A DNA stretch of 45,423 nucleotides, from positions 1-45,423 of the forward strand of contig JAENZJ010000024.1 in the NCBI GenBank assembly GCA_016841325.1, given 5' to 3'. Under the pieces are notes generated by a model. It was not told where the DNA came from. It saw only the letters and a program-made list of their open reading frames with translations, and did no database searches. The stretch is from Thermincola carboxydiphila. Lineage in GTDB: Bacteria > Bacillota > Thermincolia > Thermincolales > UBA2595. Below are positions 3,649 through 19,110 of the stretch, piece by piece (the stretch's first letter is position 1; each line of letters starts with the position of its first letter). Position numbers and translations under genes: made by a program.

Positions 3649-4605
3649 CTATTCATTCGATACAAACCCCGGATTGGAAATATGTTCAGATACTTCTTTA
3701 CGGATAACAGACTGCTTGATAACCGCAACGAAATGCCCGCCTTTTTCAAAACTGAGCAGGCGTGCACCAGGAATCATGGAAGATGCAAAGACGGCATTCT
3801 GATATGGCTGTAAAGTGTCATCTTCGGCATGTACGACCAGAGTCGGGGTTTTGATTCCGGCAATCCGCTCATTGGGCAGCGCCGCGTAGTGATCAAAAGC
3901 AGCACCTGATTTGCGTAGCGCAGCAGGGTTCATGTAATCGATTAGTTGGTCTATTAGTTCTATTTGTTGAGGGCTGAGGGTTGCTATTACATCTTTGTTT
4001 GCACCTATTAATTGCATTATCTGTTTTTTAAACAGGTTCACCGAGATCCAATAAGTAAAGTCTCTTTGCATTATGTTTGCTAACATCTTGCCTTGTTTTG
4101 CACCCTGTTCTCCCGCCTGTTCGGATATATTTGCAGCTCCGGCTGAGATGAGAGTAAGGGATGAAACCCTGTCAGGATAAAGAAGTGCAAAAAGAAGTGC
4201 AGAAGGCCCACCGGCTGAAAAGCCGACCACGGCAGTTTTTTCAACGTTAAGATGGTCTAACAGCATTGCATAAGCGTGAGCCTGATCATCATAAGTGGCC
4301 TCCTCGGGCATGCTTGATTTCAGATAGCCAAAACGCGAAGGTGTAATCCATCGGAACTTTTCGCCCAATACGGTACGGGTAAGAAGTTCGCCCTGGTCGT
4401 AACCGCCACCGCCTCCATGGATTACCAAAACATCAGGGCCAATTCCACCCTCAGTGTATTCAACATCTCCATAAGGTGTAGAAATTATACTGCTTTTTTC
4501 CTGGACCCGGTCATAGGATATTCGCATATCTCTTTGGTATATCACCCATATCAGAGCAGTAACAACAATAAATATTCCCACCAACATAGTTATTCTTCTC
4601 CTCAT
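3649..4605 (-). CDS. Membrane-anchored alpha/beta hydrolase
   Basis: A 318-residue alpha/beta-fold hydrolase with an N-terminal membrane anchor (residues about 5-23), putting the catalytic domain outside the membrane. Visible features are the oxyanion-hole stretch HGGGGG near residue 65, the nucleophile elbow GFSAGG near residues 129-134, an acid in HAEDD near residue 261 and the catalytic histidine in GGHF near residue 293. The substrate cannot be told from the sequence. The start is 30 bases after the upstream TGA-containing membrane ORF, with AGGATGGTGA as a moderate ribosome site, so it is the last gene of a four-gene minus-strand cluster. Confidence 0.8.
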   Translation of the reverse strand: MRRRITMLVGIFIVVTALIWVIYQRDMRISYDRVQEKSSIISTPYGDVEYTEGGIGPDVLVIHGGGGGYDQGELLTRTVLGEKFRWITPSRFGYLKSSMPEEATYDDQAHAYAMLLDHLNVEKTAVVGFSAGGPSALLFALLYPDRVSSLTLISAGAANISEQAGEQGAKQGKMLANIMQRDFTYWISVNLFKKQIMQLIGANKDVIATLSPQQIELIDQLIDYMNPAALRKSGAAFDHYAALPNERIAGIKTPTLVVHAEDDTLQPYQNAVFASSMIPGARLLSFEKGGHFVAVIKQSVIRKEVSEHISNPGFVSNE

Positions 4606-4635: not shown

Positions 4636-4821
4636 TTAAGTGGTTTTTGACTTCACAGACCGGGCTATACATGCTGTTCCGAGAATCGTACTGACAGTAT
4701 GGAACGCAAAGGCACCCCAGAGTTGATTTATATTGGAAAATGTTTGGGAGAAGACCCCTCCCATTACCCAAACAATTCAGACAAGACCAAGTGACAGTAA
4801 TAAATAACCAAGAATTTTCAA
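4636..4821 (-). CDS. Candidate small membrane selenoprotein B (in-frame TGA at codon 15)
   Basis: Reading from a TTG at 4821, placed 8 bases after a perfect AGGAGG, gives a 61-codon frame ending at TAA (4636-4638) and interrupted only by TGA at 4779-4777. The translation is MKILGYLLLSLGLV, then TGA, then IVWVMGGVF, a polar loop, and a second hydrophobic stretch starting FAFHTVSTILG. It therefore has two transmembrane helices, with the TGA in the middle of the first. A hairpin with SECIS-like position and loop follows the TGA. The upstream neighbour has the same design and shares the motif TGA-I-[IV]-x-[IV]-M-x-x-V-F and F-H-x-[IV]-[ST]-[AT]-I-L. Selenocysteine is the best reading. A pseudogene or sequencing error is less likely, given two independent cases. 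Function unknown. Confidence 0.65.
4746..4762 (-). promoter_or_regulatory. SECIS-like hairpin after the TGA of ORF B
   Basis: On the minus strand, 14 bases after the TGA, GGGAG (4762-4758) pairs with CTCCC (4750-4746) around the loop GGGTCTT. The GGUCU core is the same as in the apical loop of the E. coli fdhF SECIS element, and the UGA-to-loop distance (19 bases) is close to the 17 bases there. A competing outer stem TTTGGG/CCCAAA is also possible. Confidence 0.6.
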
Positions 4822-4837
4822 CAGAATAACCTCCTTT

Positions 4838-5026
4838 CTAAATAGACCGCTGGGCAATTAAGATCAGAAAAACAGTTAGAATAGCTGTAATTCCATGAAA
4901 ACCGTACCAAGGTAACACCTTCCTGCTGAAAGCAGTGGTTTTGCCGCGGAACACGTCCGCCATAATAGATATAATTCAGGCGGCCGATATTAACCAAACA
5001 ATGATAGCACTAATCCACCAGATCAT
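4838..5026 (-). CDS. Candidate small membrane selenoprotein A (in-frame TGA at codon 17)
   Basis: ATG at 5026 follows AAGGAGGAAGAAAA, whose AAGGAGG overlaps the stop codon of the 72-aa gene. The frame runs 62 codons to TAG (4838-4840), broken only by TGA at 4978-4976. The translation is MIWWISAIIVWLISAA, then TGA, then IISIMADVF, a basic loop (RGKTTAFSRK), and a second helix beginning YGFHGITAIL. The ribosome site of ORF B begins one base after this stop codon. The matching residues on both sides of the TGA in ORFs A and B, and the hairpin at 4960-4946, argue that the TGA is translated, most simply as selenocysteine. No known family is recognised. The Sec-in-helix-1 and His-in-helix-2 layout would suit a membrane redox protein, but that is speculation. 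Confidence 0.65.
4946..4960 (-). promoter_or_regulatory. SECIS-like hairpin after the TGA of ORF A
   Basis: On the minus strand, 15 bases after the TGA, GCGGA (4960-4956) pairs perfectly with TCCGC (4950-4946) around the loop CGTGT. A G at the second loop position and a UGA-to-loop distance of 20 bases fit the general bacterial SECIS description. The spacing is almost the same as in ORF B although the stem sequence differs. Confidence 0.5.
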
Positions 5027-5038
5027 TTTTCTTCCTCC

Positions 5039-5257
5039 TTATTTTTTATATCCATCCTGTTCTGCTCTTCTGACTACCTGAAGAGTCAGCCCCAGGTCAT
5101 AGATTCTGTTTATCAGGGCATGCAGGGAAGCCTGGTCAAATTCCCTGCATGTGATTCTGGTTTCCCCGCCGGACAAAAATTCCAGCTCGATTTCTGCCAG
5201 GCCCCGAAATCGCCGTTTATCAATATGGCCGGATACAATAATCTCATAATTCATCAC
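5039..5257 (-). CDS. Small conserved-type protein of unknown function (72 aa)
   Basis: A soluble 72-residue protein starting MMNYEIIVSGHIDKRRFRGL with later GGETRITCREFDQASLHALI and IYDLGLTLQVVRR. The pattern (strand, H-x-D, central G-x-T, D-Q-A-x-L-H, R-I-x-D-L-G-L) is like a family of very small proteins often found beside MalT-like LuxR regulators; I know no function for it. The start has AGGAGG 8 bases before the ATG, and a second ATG one codon later is equally possible. It is the first gene of the cluster that continues into the two TGA-containing ORFs. Confidence 0.75.
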   Translation of the reverse strand: MMNYEIIVSGHIDKRRFRGLAEIELEFLSGGETRITCREFDQASLHALINRIYDLGLTLQVVRRAEQDGYKK

Positions 5258-5281
5258 TACCTCCTCCTGACGTTAAGTTAT

Positions 5282-5346
5282 ATTATAATTATAACTCTTG
5301 GGAGGTTGGGTTGTAACCTAACTAAAGTTCGGTTACAGGTTAGGTT
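5282..5346 (-). promoter_or_regulatory. Putative promoter and operator of the small selenoprotein-like cluster
   Basis: Reading on the minus strand, two overlapping TATAAT -10 boxes lie at 5293-5288 and 5287-5282, with a weak -35 (TTACAA, 5316-5311) 17 bases upstream of the first. Just upstream is a perfect 8-bp inverted repeat, AACCTAAC (5315-5322) and GTTAGGTT (5339-5346), plus further GGTTAC/GTAACC copies. This position suits an activator, the obvious candidate being the MalT-like regulator encoded next to it. Confidence 0.5.
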
Positions 5347-5363
5347 TTTATAATTTTTCTTAT

Positions 5364-5397
5364 ACCGGAAGGGGCAGATTTCTCTGCCCCTTCCGGT
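5364..5397. terminator. 15-bp perfect hairpin after the LuxR regulator gene
   Basis: ACCGGAAGGGGCAGA (5364-5378) and its exact complement (5383-5397) enclose a TTTC loop, 17 bases beyond the regulator stop codon. It lacks a clear T run on the minus strand but is strong enough to separate the regulator transcript from the small cluster downstream. Confidence 0.65.
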
Positions 5398-5414
5398 TAT
5401 TGATACTTTTCAAT

Positions 5415-8057
5415 TTAAATTATCTTTAGTTCTTTTGCTTTATTGACAGCCTGAGTCCGGTTTTTTACTCCCAGCTTTGCATATATATGGTTGGCATGCC
5501 ATTTCACCGTTCCTAAACTAATGTAGAGTTTACCGGAAATATCTGTGTTTGAAAGCCCGGCGGCAATTAAACCTAAGACCTCTAACTCCCTTTCACTTAG
5601 GGGTTCTGCCAGCCCAGAAGCTGGGTTAATCACGTGGGTAGTGTCGTTAAGATTTAACTCTGAGCGGAAATCTGCTATCAGGCTGGCAACAAAGTCCGGA
5701 GCAGTGTCCTGCACCAAAGGCAGCATACGCAAAATGTGCTTTCCCTCCTGCAAGAAAGAGCGACGGTAGTTTTGCGGGGCAGCTATTCCCACTGCTGCCC
5801 GGAGCTTGTTTTTTGCACCTTCTGAATTGCCTGACAGATCATTTAAGATAGCCTGCAAAACTAAAATATTAATTAATCGACCTTGCCTCATACCTTTACG
5901 ACAGAAATCCTCCAGCTTTTTTAAAAGAGCTCCTGCTTCCTGCCAGAGTTGTTTGGCTAAGAGAAAGCGTATACAGACTAAATAAGAGTGTTCTGTTAAT
6001 GAAGTAATCTCACCCTCAAGGGACAATCCGTTTCTCAACATCCAGTCTTCTACCCACTGTATATCATCCATAGCAAGTTTAAAGTCAGCTAGAACAGTTT
6101 CATATCTCAGGGTAACAATGGGCAAACCTGCCGACCTGGACCTATCAAGAGCTTTCTGTATTAAAGCGATTGCGTCTTCCCGGTGTCCCTGCAAAAACCT
6201 GATTTTGGACAGGGTTCTTTCCCCATCTCCACCGAAAATATCATTTATTGCCAGCCTTCGGCCTGCTTCGATTCCTCTGAGCACACTTTCTTCTGCCAAT
6301 TTTATCTGATTAGATTCTAAATAAAAGACAGCCAGGGGGATATTGAGAATCCCTGCTGCCGGCAAAGGCCTGTCTCCGGTTTCCCTACCTGCCAGCATAT
6401 CTAAGCATAAATGGATGGCGTGCTGCAAATCGCCCTGGATGTAGTAGTTATAAACCAGGTCCATGGTTACGGTACACAAGGGCAATGTATAGTTGAACTG
6501 CCTGCTAATAGACAATGCTTCTCTGAAGGCACTGGTGGATTTGTCCAAATAACCTCTGCTTCTCAGTGACTGGGCTAAGGCTACCAGAGCAAAAACCTTT
6601 AATCCGGGGTCCTGATCTGCCATCAACTCTATAGCCTCCCCTGCCAGTGCCATGGTCATCTTATCTTCACGAATATTTGCCAGCCAGGCTTCAAGTGTTT
6701 TAACCCTTCCCTGACTCAATCTGTCTACATTTTTTATTTGTTTAAAATCGTTTATATAGGAATAGGCATCTTCAATTCGGGCCAGAAGAAAAAGGGCACA
6801 GGCCTTAGTTGAACAAAGCTCCCCGTCTTCTCGAACAAAGTGGTCCCCTAATCTGTCCAGCCATCTAATCAGAGCATATAAGTCCCCTCTGACAATGCTT
6901 TGACTGGTTTGTGCCTTTATTAGCTGAACCGCTTTCTCCACATCTCCTGCAGCCAGAGAATGTTCTGTGGCTTCAGTTTTATAACCATTGCATTCATACC
7001 ATTTAGAAGCCTTTTGGTGAAGAGCTGCTGCTTGTTTTTCATCTATCTCCGTACGGAGGAAATCTGCAAAAAGGTGATGATAACGGTACCATTGCCGCTC
7101 TTCATCCAGGGGAATTAGGAAAAGGTTTCTTTGTTCTAGGTTTAAGAGAATTTTTTTGCTGTCTTTTCTATCTGATAAATCATCACATAAATCCGCACAC
7201 ATCCGGTTTAATATCGCTGTATTGCATAGAAATTCTTTGATTTCATCCGCCTGCTGGTTAAAAACTTCATCAAACAGGTAATCTATAACAAACTTATGGC
7301 TTCCGCTAAATTTGTTAATAAACTCCTCAATTCCCTGCTCCTCCCTGCCCCGCAGCGAAAGAGCTGCCAGCTGGAGACCGGCAATCCAGCCCTCGGTCCT
7401 GGTCTTTAGAGAAATAATATGTGCTGTTTTTAAGTCAAGCTGCATTGTATGGGAAAAAAACGCTGCCACTTCCTGATCAGAAAACCTTAAATCATCAATC
7501 CTAATTTCTGTTAATAAAGATCTGACCCGCCACTTTCCGAGGGGCAGTGGAGGATCAAGCCTTGAAACAATTACTATATGAAATGAAGGTGGACAATTCT
7601 CTATCATAAATTCTAAAGTCCGGTGCAAATAATCATTGGTGATTACATGATAATCATCCAGTACCAAAACTGACAGGCTGCCACTGTGAAGCAAATGATT
7701 AAGAAGCAGTGTTGCCACAACCTCGGGAGATGGCAGCCGGGGAGATTCTATCAGACTGCTGACTTCCTGAAAAAATTCCTCACTGAGGGTCTTCAGTGAT
7801 GTAATAAGGTATGTCAGGAATCTCTTAGGGTCATTATCTCCTGGATCCAGGGAAACCCAGGCGCACTCATGGTTAACTGTTTTTAACCATTCTGCAAGTA
7901 ATGTGGTTTTACCATACCCCGCCGGAGCAGAAACCAGGGTGAGCTTTCCTCCGTGTTCCATGCCTTCCGAAATTCTCCGGACCAATAAGGAGCGCGAGAC
8001 CGTATTGGGCCTGGACGCCGGTAAATATAATTTTGTCATCAGTATTGGGTTTGACAA
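5415..8057 (-). CDS. MalT-like ATP-dependent LuxR-family transcriptional activator
   Basis: An 880-residue STAND-type regulator. The N-terminal NTPase domain has a Walker A motif APAGYGKTT near residue 46 and a Walker B-like VLVLDDYH near residue 131. The middle (about 380-800) is helical and TPR-like, as in MalT. The last 65 residues form a LuxR helix-turn-helix starting PLSERELEVLGLIAAGLS and containing GTVKWHANHIYAKLGVKNR. Length and domain order match the MalT family, which is switched by a small inducer and ATP. The TTG at 8057 has AGGGAG upstream; the ATG six codons later has no ribosome site. The downstream cluster with its inverted-repeat operator is the likely target; the inducer is unknown. 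Confidence 0.9.
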   Translation of the reverse strand: MSNPILMTKLYLPASRPNTVSRSLLVRRISEGMEHGGKLTLVSAPAGYGKTTLLAEWLKTVNHECAWVSLDPGDNDPKRFLTYLITSLKTLSEEFFQEVSSLIESPRLPSPEVVATLLLNHLLHSGSLSVLVLDDYHVITNDYLHRTLEFMIENCPPSFHIVIVSRLDPPLPLGKWRVRSLLTEIRIDDLRFSDQEVAAFFSHTMQLDLKTAHIISLKTRTEGWIAGLQLAALSLRGREEQGIEEFINKFSGSHKFVIDYLFDEVFNQQADEIKEFLCNTAILNRMCADLCDDLSDRKDSKKILLNLEQRNLFLIPLDEERQWYRYHHLFADFLRTEIDEKQAAALHQKASKWYECNGYKTEATEHSLAAGDVEKAVQLIKAQTSQSIVRGDLYALIRWLDRLGDHFVREDGELCSTKACALFLLARIEDAYSYINDFKQIKNVDRLSQGRVKTLEAWLANIREDKMTMALAGEAIELMADQDPGLKVFALVALAQSLRSRGYLDKSTSAFREALSISRQFNYTLPLCTVTMDLVYNYYIQGDLQHAIHLCLDMLAGRETGDRPLPAAGILNIPLAVFYLESNQIKLAEESVLRGIEAGRRLAINDIFGGDGERTLSKIRFLQGHREDAIALIQKALDRSRSAGLPIVTLRYETVLADFKLAMDDIQWVEDWMLRNGLSLEGEITSLTEHSYLVCIRFLLAKQLWQEAGALLKKLEDFCRKGMRQGRLINILVLQAILNDLSGNSEGAKNKLRAAVGIAAPQNYRRSFLQEGKHILRMLPLVQDTAPDFVASLIADFRSELNLNDTTHVINPASGLAEPLSERELEVLGLIAAGLSNTDISGKLYISLGTVKWHANHIYAKLGVKNRTQAVNKAKELKII

Positions 8058-14328: not shown

Positions 14329-14595
14329 GCCGTGCTACATGGGGAGGTAGCGGTGCCCTGTACCTGCAATCCGCTATAGCAGGGTGGAATTCCTGTCCCC
14401 GGCTTCATTTCTTAAGGTCTGACCGTCGCAAGTGGCGTTGAAGACCGGGTCTTACGCAACGCGAACCTGTGAACCCCGTCAGGTCCGGAAGGAAGCAGCG
14501 GTAAGCGGACCATCGCGTGTGCCGTAAGGGCGCCTGATCCGAGTTAACTGCGCCGGTAACGCTTGGGAGATGATTGTCAAAGACGGGTGCACGGC
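14329..14595 (+). ncRNA. ffs: Signal recognition particle RNA, long (Bacillus-type) form
   Basis: About 267 bases. The ends GCCGTGC and GCACGGC pair to close the molecule. The universally conserved SRP domain IV is present: GTCAGGTCCGGAAGGAAGCA followed by GCGGTAAG. An Alu-domain-like 5' part with GGGGAGGTAGCGGTGCCCTG is also present, so it is the long form with Alu and S domains used by spore-forming Firmicutes. It lies upstream of dnaX, as in many of these genomes. Confidence 0.93.
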
Positions 14596-17604: not shown

Positions 17605-17951
17605 TTTAAAAGCATTGACGGAGATAAGTAAGCCGGGTACCTGTCTTGACAGGGAATGGGGGTCATGGACTGAAAGCCCCTTAAGATACGGTCAGGCCCA
17701 AATTCCCTCCCGAGCTGCCGGTTGAAAAGGGCAATTGCTCCTGAGTAGATCAGGCCGGAACTCCACCGTTATCAGGAAGAGGGTATCAGATTCGGGTTGG
17801 CAGTTGGCAGTTAATAGTCGGCAGAGGGCCGTTTGCTGATGGCGGCCATCAGACGGATCTCGTACCTGCAACGAGCGGGTTACAATTGTAACCAAATTGG
17901 GTGGTATCGCGGAACCAGGCTTTCGTCCCTTTATGGATGAAGGCTTTTTTG
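17605..17951 (+). promoter_or_regulatory. T-box leader (first antiterminator/terminator unit)
   Basis: A T-box riboswitch reading uncharged tRNA. The 5' part shows the AGTAAG and stem I elements, and the 3' arm of stem I contains GGAACTCCACCGTTATC. The T-box bulge sequence GGGTGGTATCGCGG lies at 17898-17911, followed by terminator arms around 17918-17944 and a TTTTTT run. The specifier could be read as TCC (Ser) or, shifted one base, CTC (Leu); neither is aromatic although aroF-pheA follow. The linker at 17795-17830 carries short GGCAGTT repeats that look inserted. Confidence 0.85.
17797..17827. repeat. GGCAGTT-type repeat inserted in the T-box leader
   Basis: TTGGCAGTTGGCAGTTAATAG followed by TCGGCAG repeats a seven-base unit three or four times, resembling the GACAGTT repeats at 241-272 and 17989-18004. 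It lies between stem I and the antiterminator, where T-box leaders tolerate length changes. Confidence 0.5.
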
Positions 17952-18096: not shown

Positions 18097-19110
18097 ATGA
18101 TAGTTGTTATGGACCTAAGGGCAACCGAAGAACAGGTTAAGGCAGTGGATAAGAGACTAGAGGAACTGGGCTTTAAGACCCACCTCATCAGGGGTGTCGA
18201 GCGCCTGGTTATTGGTGCAATTGGTGACCGGAAACAGATCCTGAATTCGGGGATAGAGATTATGCCCGGAGTTGAAAAACTTGTCCCTATCATGAAGCCT
18301 TTTAAACTGGTCAGCAGGGATGTTAAACTGGAAGACACAGTGATCAGGGTAAGGGATTTTGATATTGGCGCCAAGGAGATTACGGTTATTGCCGGTCCGT
18401 GTGCCGTGGAGAGCAGGGAACAGTTGATGGAAACTGCAAAGCTGGTTGCCAGGGCAGGAGCCAAAGCTATCAGGGGAGGGACCTACAAACCCAGGACTTC
18501 GCCTTACAGCTTCCAGGGCATGGAGGAAGATGGCCTGCAGCTTCTGGCTGAGGCAGGAAGGGAAACCGGCCTGGCTACTATTACCGAGGTCATTGATGAA
18601 AAGAGCCTTGGCCTGGCAGTTAATTATGTAGACATAATTCAAATCGGGGCCCGCAACATGCAGAATTTCCAGTTGTTGCGGGCTGCCGGCAGGATCAGAA
18701 AGCCTGTGGTGCTGAAAAGGGGATTGTCGGCCACCATGGAGGAATGGTTAATGGCCGCAGAGTACATAATGTCAGAAGGGAATTATAATGTCATTTTATG
18801 TGAACGGGGTATCCGCACGTTTGAAAATTATACCAGGAATACCCTTGACCTGAGCGCAGTGCCTTTAATCAAGCAGTTGAGCCATTTGCCGGTTATTGTT
18901 GACCCAAGTCATGCCACCGGTGAATGGCGGCTTGTACCACCGCTCTCCAAAGGCGCTGTCGCGGTAGGGGCCGATGGCTTGCTGGTAGAGGTCCACCCCG
19001 ATCCCGTCACGGCGCTGTGTGACGGTCCCCAGTCACTGACACCGGAAAATTTCAGGGTCCTCATGGAGGAACTGGGTCCGGTGGCCAATTCAGTAGGCCG
19101 GGATATATGA
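18097..19110 (+). CDS. aroF: 3-deoxy-7-phosphoheptulonate synthase (DAHP synthase)
   Basis: A 337-residue type I-beta DAHP synthase, which condenses PEP with erythrose-4-phosphate in the first step of aromatic amino-acid synthesis. An N-terminal ferredoxin-like regulatory domain (about residues 1-70) precedes the barrel. Barrel signatures are AGPCAVES near residue 98, RGGTYKPRTSPY near residues 126-137, IQIGARNMQNF, LKRGLSAT and DPSHATG. The ATG follows AAGGGGGAG. It is controlled by the tandem T-box upstream and is 17 bases from pheA. It lies between recR and yaaL, where aromatic genes are not usual. Confidence 0.95.
   Translation: MIVVMDLRATEEQVKAVDKRLEELGFKTHLIRGVERLVIGAIGDRKQILNSGIEIMPGVEKLVPIMKPFKLVSRDVKLEDTVIRVRDFDIGAKEITVIAGPCAVESREQLMETAKLVARAGAKAIRGGTYKPRTSPYSFQGMEEDGLQLLAEAGRETGLATITEVIDEKSLGLAVNYVDIIQIGARNMQNFQLLRAAGRIRKPVVLKRGLSATMEEWLMAAEYIMSEGNYNVILCERGIRTFENYTRNTLDLSAVPLIKQLSHLPVIVDPSHATGEWRLVPPLSKGAVAVGADGLLVEVHPDPVTALCDGPQSLTPENFRVLMEELGPVANSVGRDI

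Follow-up and report, generated by a model that had tools for sequence, protein, structure and literature searches.

The locus raises two linked questions: whether two short reading frames, each interrupted by a single in-frame TGA, are genes in which that codon is translated as selenocysteine (Sec), and what such a pair of proteins might do in the membrane. The window, the whole stretch of 45,423 nucleotides of Thermincola carboxydiphila that was analysed (contig JAENZJ010000024.1), belongs to genome G000 and was compared with two genomes of the same genus, G006 and G005. Four successive genes occupy positions 5254–3649 of the minus strand with intergenic gaps of 12–30 bases. Their order from 5' to 3' is ORF72, ORF A, ORF B and an alpha/beta hydrolase, and a MalT-type LuxR regulator lies upstream on the same strand:

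5415..8057, minus strand: MalT-type LuxR regulator, upstream of the operon
5039..5254, minus strand: ORF72, a 71-residue soluble ORF, first in the operon; relatives elsewhere follow MalT/LuxR regulators
5034..5040, minus strand: ribosome site of ORF A, AAGGAGG, which overlaps the stop codon of ORF72
4838..5026, minus strand: ORF A, a 62-residue two-segment membrane protein with predicted Sec at residue 17; ATG at 5026, TAG at 4840–4838 (included)
4976..4978, minus strand: codon 17 of ORF A, the in-frame TGA, also kept in G006
4830..4837, minus strand: ribosome site of ORF B, AAAGGAGG
4636..4821, minus strand: ORF B, a 61-residue two-segment membrane protein with predicted Sec at residue 15; TTG at 4821, TAA ending at 4636 (included)
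4777..4779, minus strand: codon 15 of ORF B, the in-frame TGA, also kept in G006
3649..4605, minus strand: alpha/beta hydrolase with an N-terminal membrane anchor, final gene of the operon

The spacing is tight throughout (ORF72 ends at 5039, A spans 5026–4838, B spans 4821–4636 and the hydrolase starts at 4605), and the single TGA of each ORF falls within the first hydrophobic segment. An earlier note on this DNA had described two such frames of 61–62 codons, each with a ribosome site, tight spacing and one TGA in that segment, and the description is confirmed. A scan of the whole window for a Shine-Dalgarno sequence, a start and a frame of 45–100 codons with exactly one internal TGA yields three frames: A, B and one that lies out of frame inside the gene at 18097–19110. 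Because only three such frames exist in the window, one of them inside another gene, the A/B pair is not attributable to chance. Gene finders would take the TGA as a stop and overlook both ORFs. The earlier note had also aligned A with B across the TGA. This held insofar as a multiple alignment brings together the TGA, V-F and F-H columns at 28–30% identity, but the similarity is weak by itself: BLASTP finds no match between A and B, and against segment-preserving shuffles the resemblance reaches P = 0.08. In our reading of the sequences, the decisive support is not this resemblance but conservation in another species.

The regulator at 5415..8057 likely controls the operon. In the gap between it and ORF72 (about 5280–5400, minus strand) lie a hairpin resembling a terminator, GGAAGGGGCAGA..TCTGCCCCTTCC, and the inverted repeat TAACCTGTAACC..AGTTAGGTTA; both are largely kept in G006 and G005, and the region is a candidate operator of the operon. 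Two ordinary RNA elements occur elsewhere on the plus strand of the window, a bacterial large SRP RNA (14330–14594) and a T-box leader (17606–17933) upstream of the gene starting at 18097.

Conservation was assessed in the two related genomes. G006 carries both ORFs at the same locus, with about 80% DNA identity, and keeps both TGAs, so that the true homologues have TGA at the column to which the earlier note had pointed. The contig JAENYP010000004.1, from a metagenome-assembled genome labelled Thermincola ferriacetica BL5_bin.1, holds both TGAs and is taken as G006's own contig. Downstream of the TGAs, the two ORFs taken together show a dN/dS of 0.23 over 89 codons between G000 and G006, with 18 synonymous and 16 nonsynonymous changes distributed 12/3/19 over the three codon positions. 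The corresponding value before the TGAs is 0.21, and that of the neighbouring hydrolase is 0.14. This codon-position pattern vanishes in shifted frames; therefore, the part after each TGA is translated, and kept under selection, as a continuation of the frame before it. In G005 (G005:C13, about 78972–79021, L013), A and the first part of B are deleted, the missing stretch is bounded by a short TAAATGA repeat and the remainder of B is still recognisable. This remnant indicates that the common ancestor of the three Thermincola-genus genomes probably carried at least B. Since the pair itself is carried by only two species, the case for conservation rests on a single comparison.

These data bear directly on two alternatives. 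That the TGAs are sequencing errors or mutations in decaying pseudogenes is the least credible account of the locus, for although the pair has been lost in a third species (G005), both TGAs recur in the assembly of a different species and so do not stem from a single faulty assembly, and apart from its TGA each ORF is intact and shows purifying selection. It is also highly improbable that the TGAs are ordinary stops that end leader peptides of 14–16 residues and leave the downstream part untranslated in that frame. Other genes here do stop at TGA, but purifying selection on the codons that follow the TGA in both ORFs nearly refutes this reading, no start with its own ribosome site was noted for the downstream parts, and the full-length frames fit the tight spacing of the operon. 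We conclude that ORFs A and B are, with high likelihood, genuine genes for very small membrane selenoproteins of 61–62 residues.

Sec decoding: The G000 genome encodes tRNA-Sec (anticodon TCA), SelA, SelB and two SelD genes, so that every component the earlier note had asked for is found. Both SelD genes (C39:65585-66511 and C5:6835-7752) contain an in-frame TGA of their own; G005 and G006 likewise have two SelD genes with an in-frame TGA each. With complete machinery and TGA-containing SelD genes, this genome very probably translates UGA as Sec. Bacterial SECIS elements have been modelled as a stem of 4–16 bp with an apical loop of 3–9 nt, in which the first two positions hold G and mostly then G or U, and with 16–37 nt between the UGA and the loop (PMC13188914). 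Each ORF has a hairpin of this kind after its TGA:

4946..4960, minus strand: SECIS-like hairpin in ORF A, GCGGA-CGUGU-UCCGC; distance from UGA to loop, 20 nt
4745..4763, minus strand: SECIS-like hairpin in ORF B, UGGGAGG-GGUCU-UCUCCCA; distance from UGA to loop, 20 nt

The spacing of 20 nt is identical for A and B in both species. Relative to G000, the stem of A in G006 has one change from A-U to G-U, and the hairpin of B is identical. Both hairpins pass the bSECIS test, in which the minimum free energy is at most -7.5: A lies near the limit (-7.8 to -9.5, depending on the length folded) and B passes clearly (-14.7). Ordinary codon sites in the genes of the window (n = 6599) match the quality of the hairpin in 2.3% of cases for A and 0.35% for B. 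The SelD hairpins of the sister species also fit the bSECIS model. Dinucleotide shuffles reveal the hairpin folds alone, including that of A, to be unexceptional; the weight of the SECIS case, as we judge it, is carried by position, loop and conservation and not by fold energy.

This evidence also bears on whether the UGA could be read as Trp or another residue by near-cognate read-through, without Sec. Trp suits a membrane helix and TGG is only one base away, but two independent genes have both held on to TGA exactly, although synonymous divergence in A is near 0.5 and TGG would be the safer codon. Both TGAs are followed by SECIS-like hairpins, and UGA in SelD is very probably already decoded as Sec in this genome, all of which makes this reading very unlikely. 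The proposal of selenocysteine is strongly supported by conservation in G006, selection after the TGA, SECIS-like hairpins and the Sec machinery. From the machinery and the hairpins, it is very likely that the UGA-encoded residue of A and B is Sec. In the mechanism we propose, SelB with Sec-tRNA(Sec) would insert Sec at each internal UGA in place of termination, directed by the hairpin whose apical loop starts 20 nt downstream, and the inserted residue would sit in the first membrane helix of each protein.

Searches for known families agree with the earlier note, whose author recognised no known selenoprotein of this shape. Neither A nor B has a Pfam or NCBIfam match above the curated cut-off. 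The 2026 catalogue of 119 prokaryotic selenoprotein families contains no entry recognisable, by its listed name, domain or motif, as a two-helix protein of about 60 residues (PMC13188914), and a literature search on small or membrane-embedded selenoproteins found nothing matching among the papers covered. When some 85,000 species were scanned for a motif that accepted every TGN codon at B's Sec column, the G006 contig was the sole match, the other 15 loci having no matching ORF. Across 398 genomes of the phylum, profile searches with A and B added no further relative; the profile matches in G355 and G173 were read and are not relatives, and none of 13 inspected weak matches of the joint profile resembles one (the reading frame being approximate for some). 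Searches of viral contigs yielded no relative of A or B, and those of plasmids yielded none for A or for the Cys-containing family described below. The two ORFs are thus a new-looking selenoprotein pair: minimal two-helix membrane proteins with a predicted Sec inside a helix and a shape unrecognisable in the 2026 catalogue. Small selenoproteins of this kind can escape surveys that rely on Cys homologues or long ORFs.

A candidate Cys counterpart emerged beside ORF72. Followed into other genomes, ORF72 adjoins MalT/LuxR regulators and its cargo is variable. Relatives of ORF72 near MalT/LuxR-type regulators occur in several phyla (G003:C75, G055:C26 and G275:C35), and others are found on the plasmids NZ_AP026078.1, NZ_CP034186.1, NZ_CP128401.1 and NZ_CP092196.1. 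The genes after them include a hydrolase, a flavodoxin-like reductase, a DUF6326 pair and an MMPL transporter. ORF72 and the regulator apparently form a regulatory module with mobile cargo that has no Pfam name. In G003 (C75:64622) and G055 (C26:172724), a single two-helix protein of 65–68 residues lies near ORF72 and a LuxR regulator, and a further copy in G285 (C12:4103) is cut by the contig end. This protein has an invariant Cys in segment 1 and, where complete, Phe-His at segment 2. When the Sec column is masked as X, four MAFFT modes place that column on the invariant Cys, a placement reproduced by none of 150 shuffles of segment 1. Pairwise scores between A/B and the Cys family do not exceed those of segment-preserving shuffles (P 0.16–0.46), hhalign gives P = 0.011 at 4% probability, and a profile search with the Cys family retrieves neither A nor B. 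The family resembles A and B in its size, its two helices, the presence of a Cys in segment 1, the Phe-His at segment 2 and, in G003 and G055, the ORF72/LuxR neighbourhood; it differs in being a single gene, in carrying Cys instead of Sec and in its shorter loop, and sequence homology is not significant. It may be the Cys counterpart of A/B, a lead and not a proof.

Membrane topology: The distribution of positive charges along a membrane protein sets its orientation (the positive-inside rule), and small proteins of opposite orientation can form antiparallel pairs, as in the paired SMR proteins. ORF A has four Lys/Arg residues in the loop between its segments and 0 and 1 at its ends; ORF B has none in the loop and 1 and 3 at its ends. 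The same opposite Lys+Arg trend is seen in G006. By the positive-inside rule, this opposite distribution would orient A and B oppositely. Segment 2 of B is moderately hydrophobic only, and AlphaFold yields weak models, with two helices in A (pLDDT 69) and, at low pTM, a single long helix in B. From the predicted topology, we consider the chance that A and B form an antiparallel hetero-oligomer to be about even.

The strongest competing explanation accepts Sec but holds that A and B act separately and share the same topology, each serving, for example, the hydrolase or some other membrane complex as a small subunit or a regulator. Small membrane proteins often modulate larger partners, the sequence similarity between A and B is weak, and the Cys-containing candidates occur singly. 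Against this, A and B are tandem and co-transcribed, with a similar layout and an opposite charge bias in both species. The hydrolase also persists in G005, where the pair is lost, indicating that it does not need A/B. Weighing both sides, we place separate action slightly below an even chance.

A and B would be made together with ORF72 and the membrane-anchored hydrolase, under the MalT-type LuxR regulator. Were they instead to assemble as an antiparallel pair, their selenols would come to within a few residues of mid-bilayer, and in each protein a conserved Phe-His would open segment 2. Such an arrangement tentatively suggests membrane-embedded redox or soft-metal/metalloid chemistry as the leading candidate role, a function we regard as possible and on the unlikely side. 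A still more specific and rather improbable form of the idea is an antiparallel carrier in which the Sec residues would meet in mid-bilayer and a diselenide would relay reducing equivalents, or else a metalloid or soft metal, from one side of the membrane to the other. A tandem pair with opposite charge bias offers a concrete and testable model for membrane selenol chemistry in an anaerobic bacterium.

Like A and B, the selenoproteins of the 119-family catalogue have an in-frame UGA, a bSECIS-type hairpin and a complete Sec machinery, and the catalogue offers precedent for co-operonic selenoprotein genes in grdA-grdB, Sao and Tso (PMC13188914). As a point of difference, A and B would carry Sec within a helix of a two-helix protein of about 60 residues, a design recognisable in none of the entries, and they have no UxxC/CxxU-type motif. 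The membrane selenoproteins of the catalogue include a putative mercuric transport protein (PF02411, MerT type) and the YeeE/YedE transporter (PF04143), and A and B have no Pfam match to either. The paired SMR and Fluc dual-topology proteins follow the same plan as A and B: two small membrane proteins in tandem whose positive charges are distributed in opposite ways, which implies that they assemble antiparallel; they differ from the pair in having four segments instead of two and show no sequence match to it, and the topology of A and B is predicted only. In the membrane thiol carriers CcdA and DsbD, inverted repeats each place a single redox chalcogen within a membrane helix. Their likeness to A and B lies in how they might work, for there is no sequence match, and A and B are separate two-segment chains with selenols in place of thiols. 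If the proposed diselenide carrier were true, it would be a minimal selenium counterpart of CcdA/DsbD.
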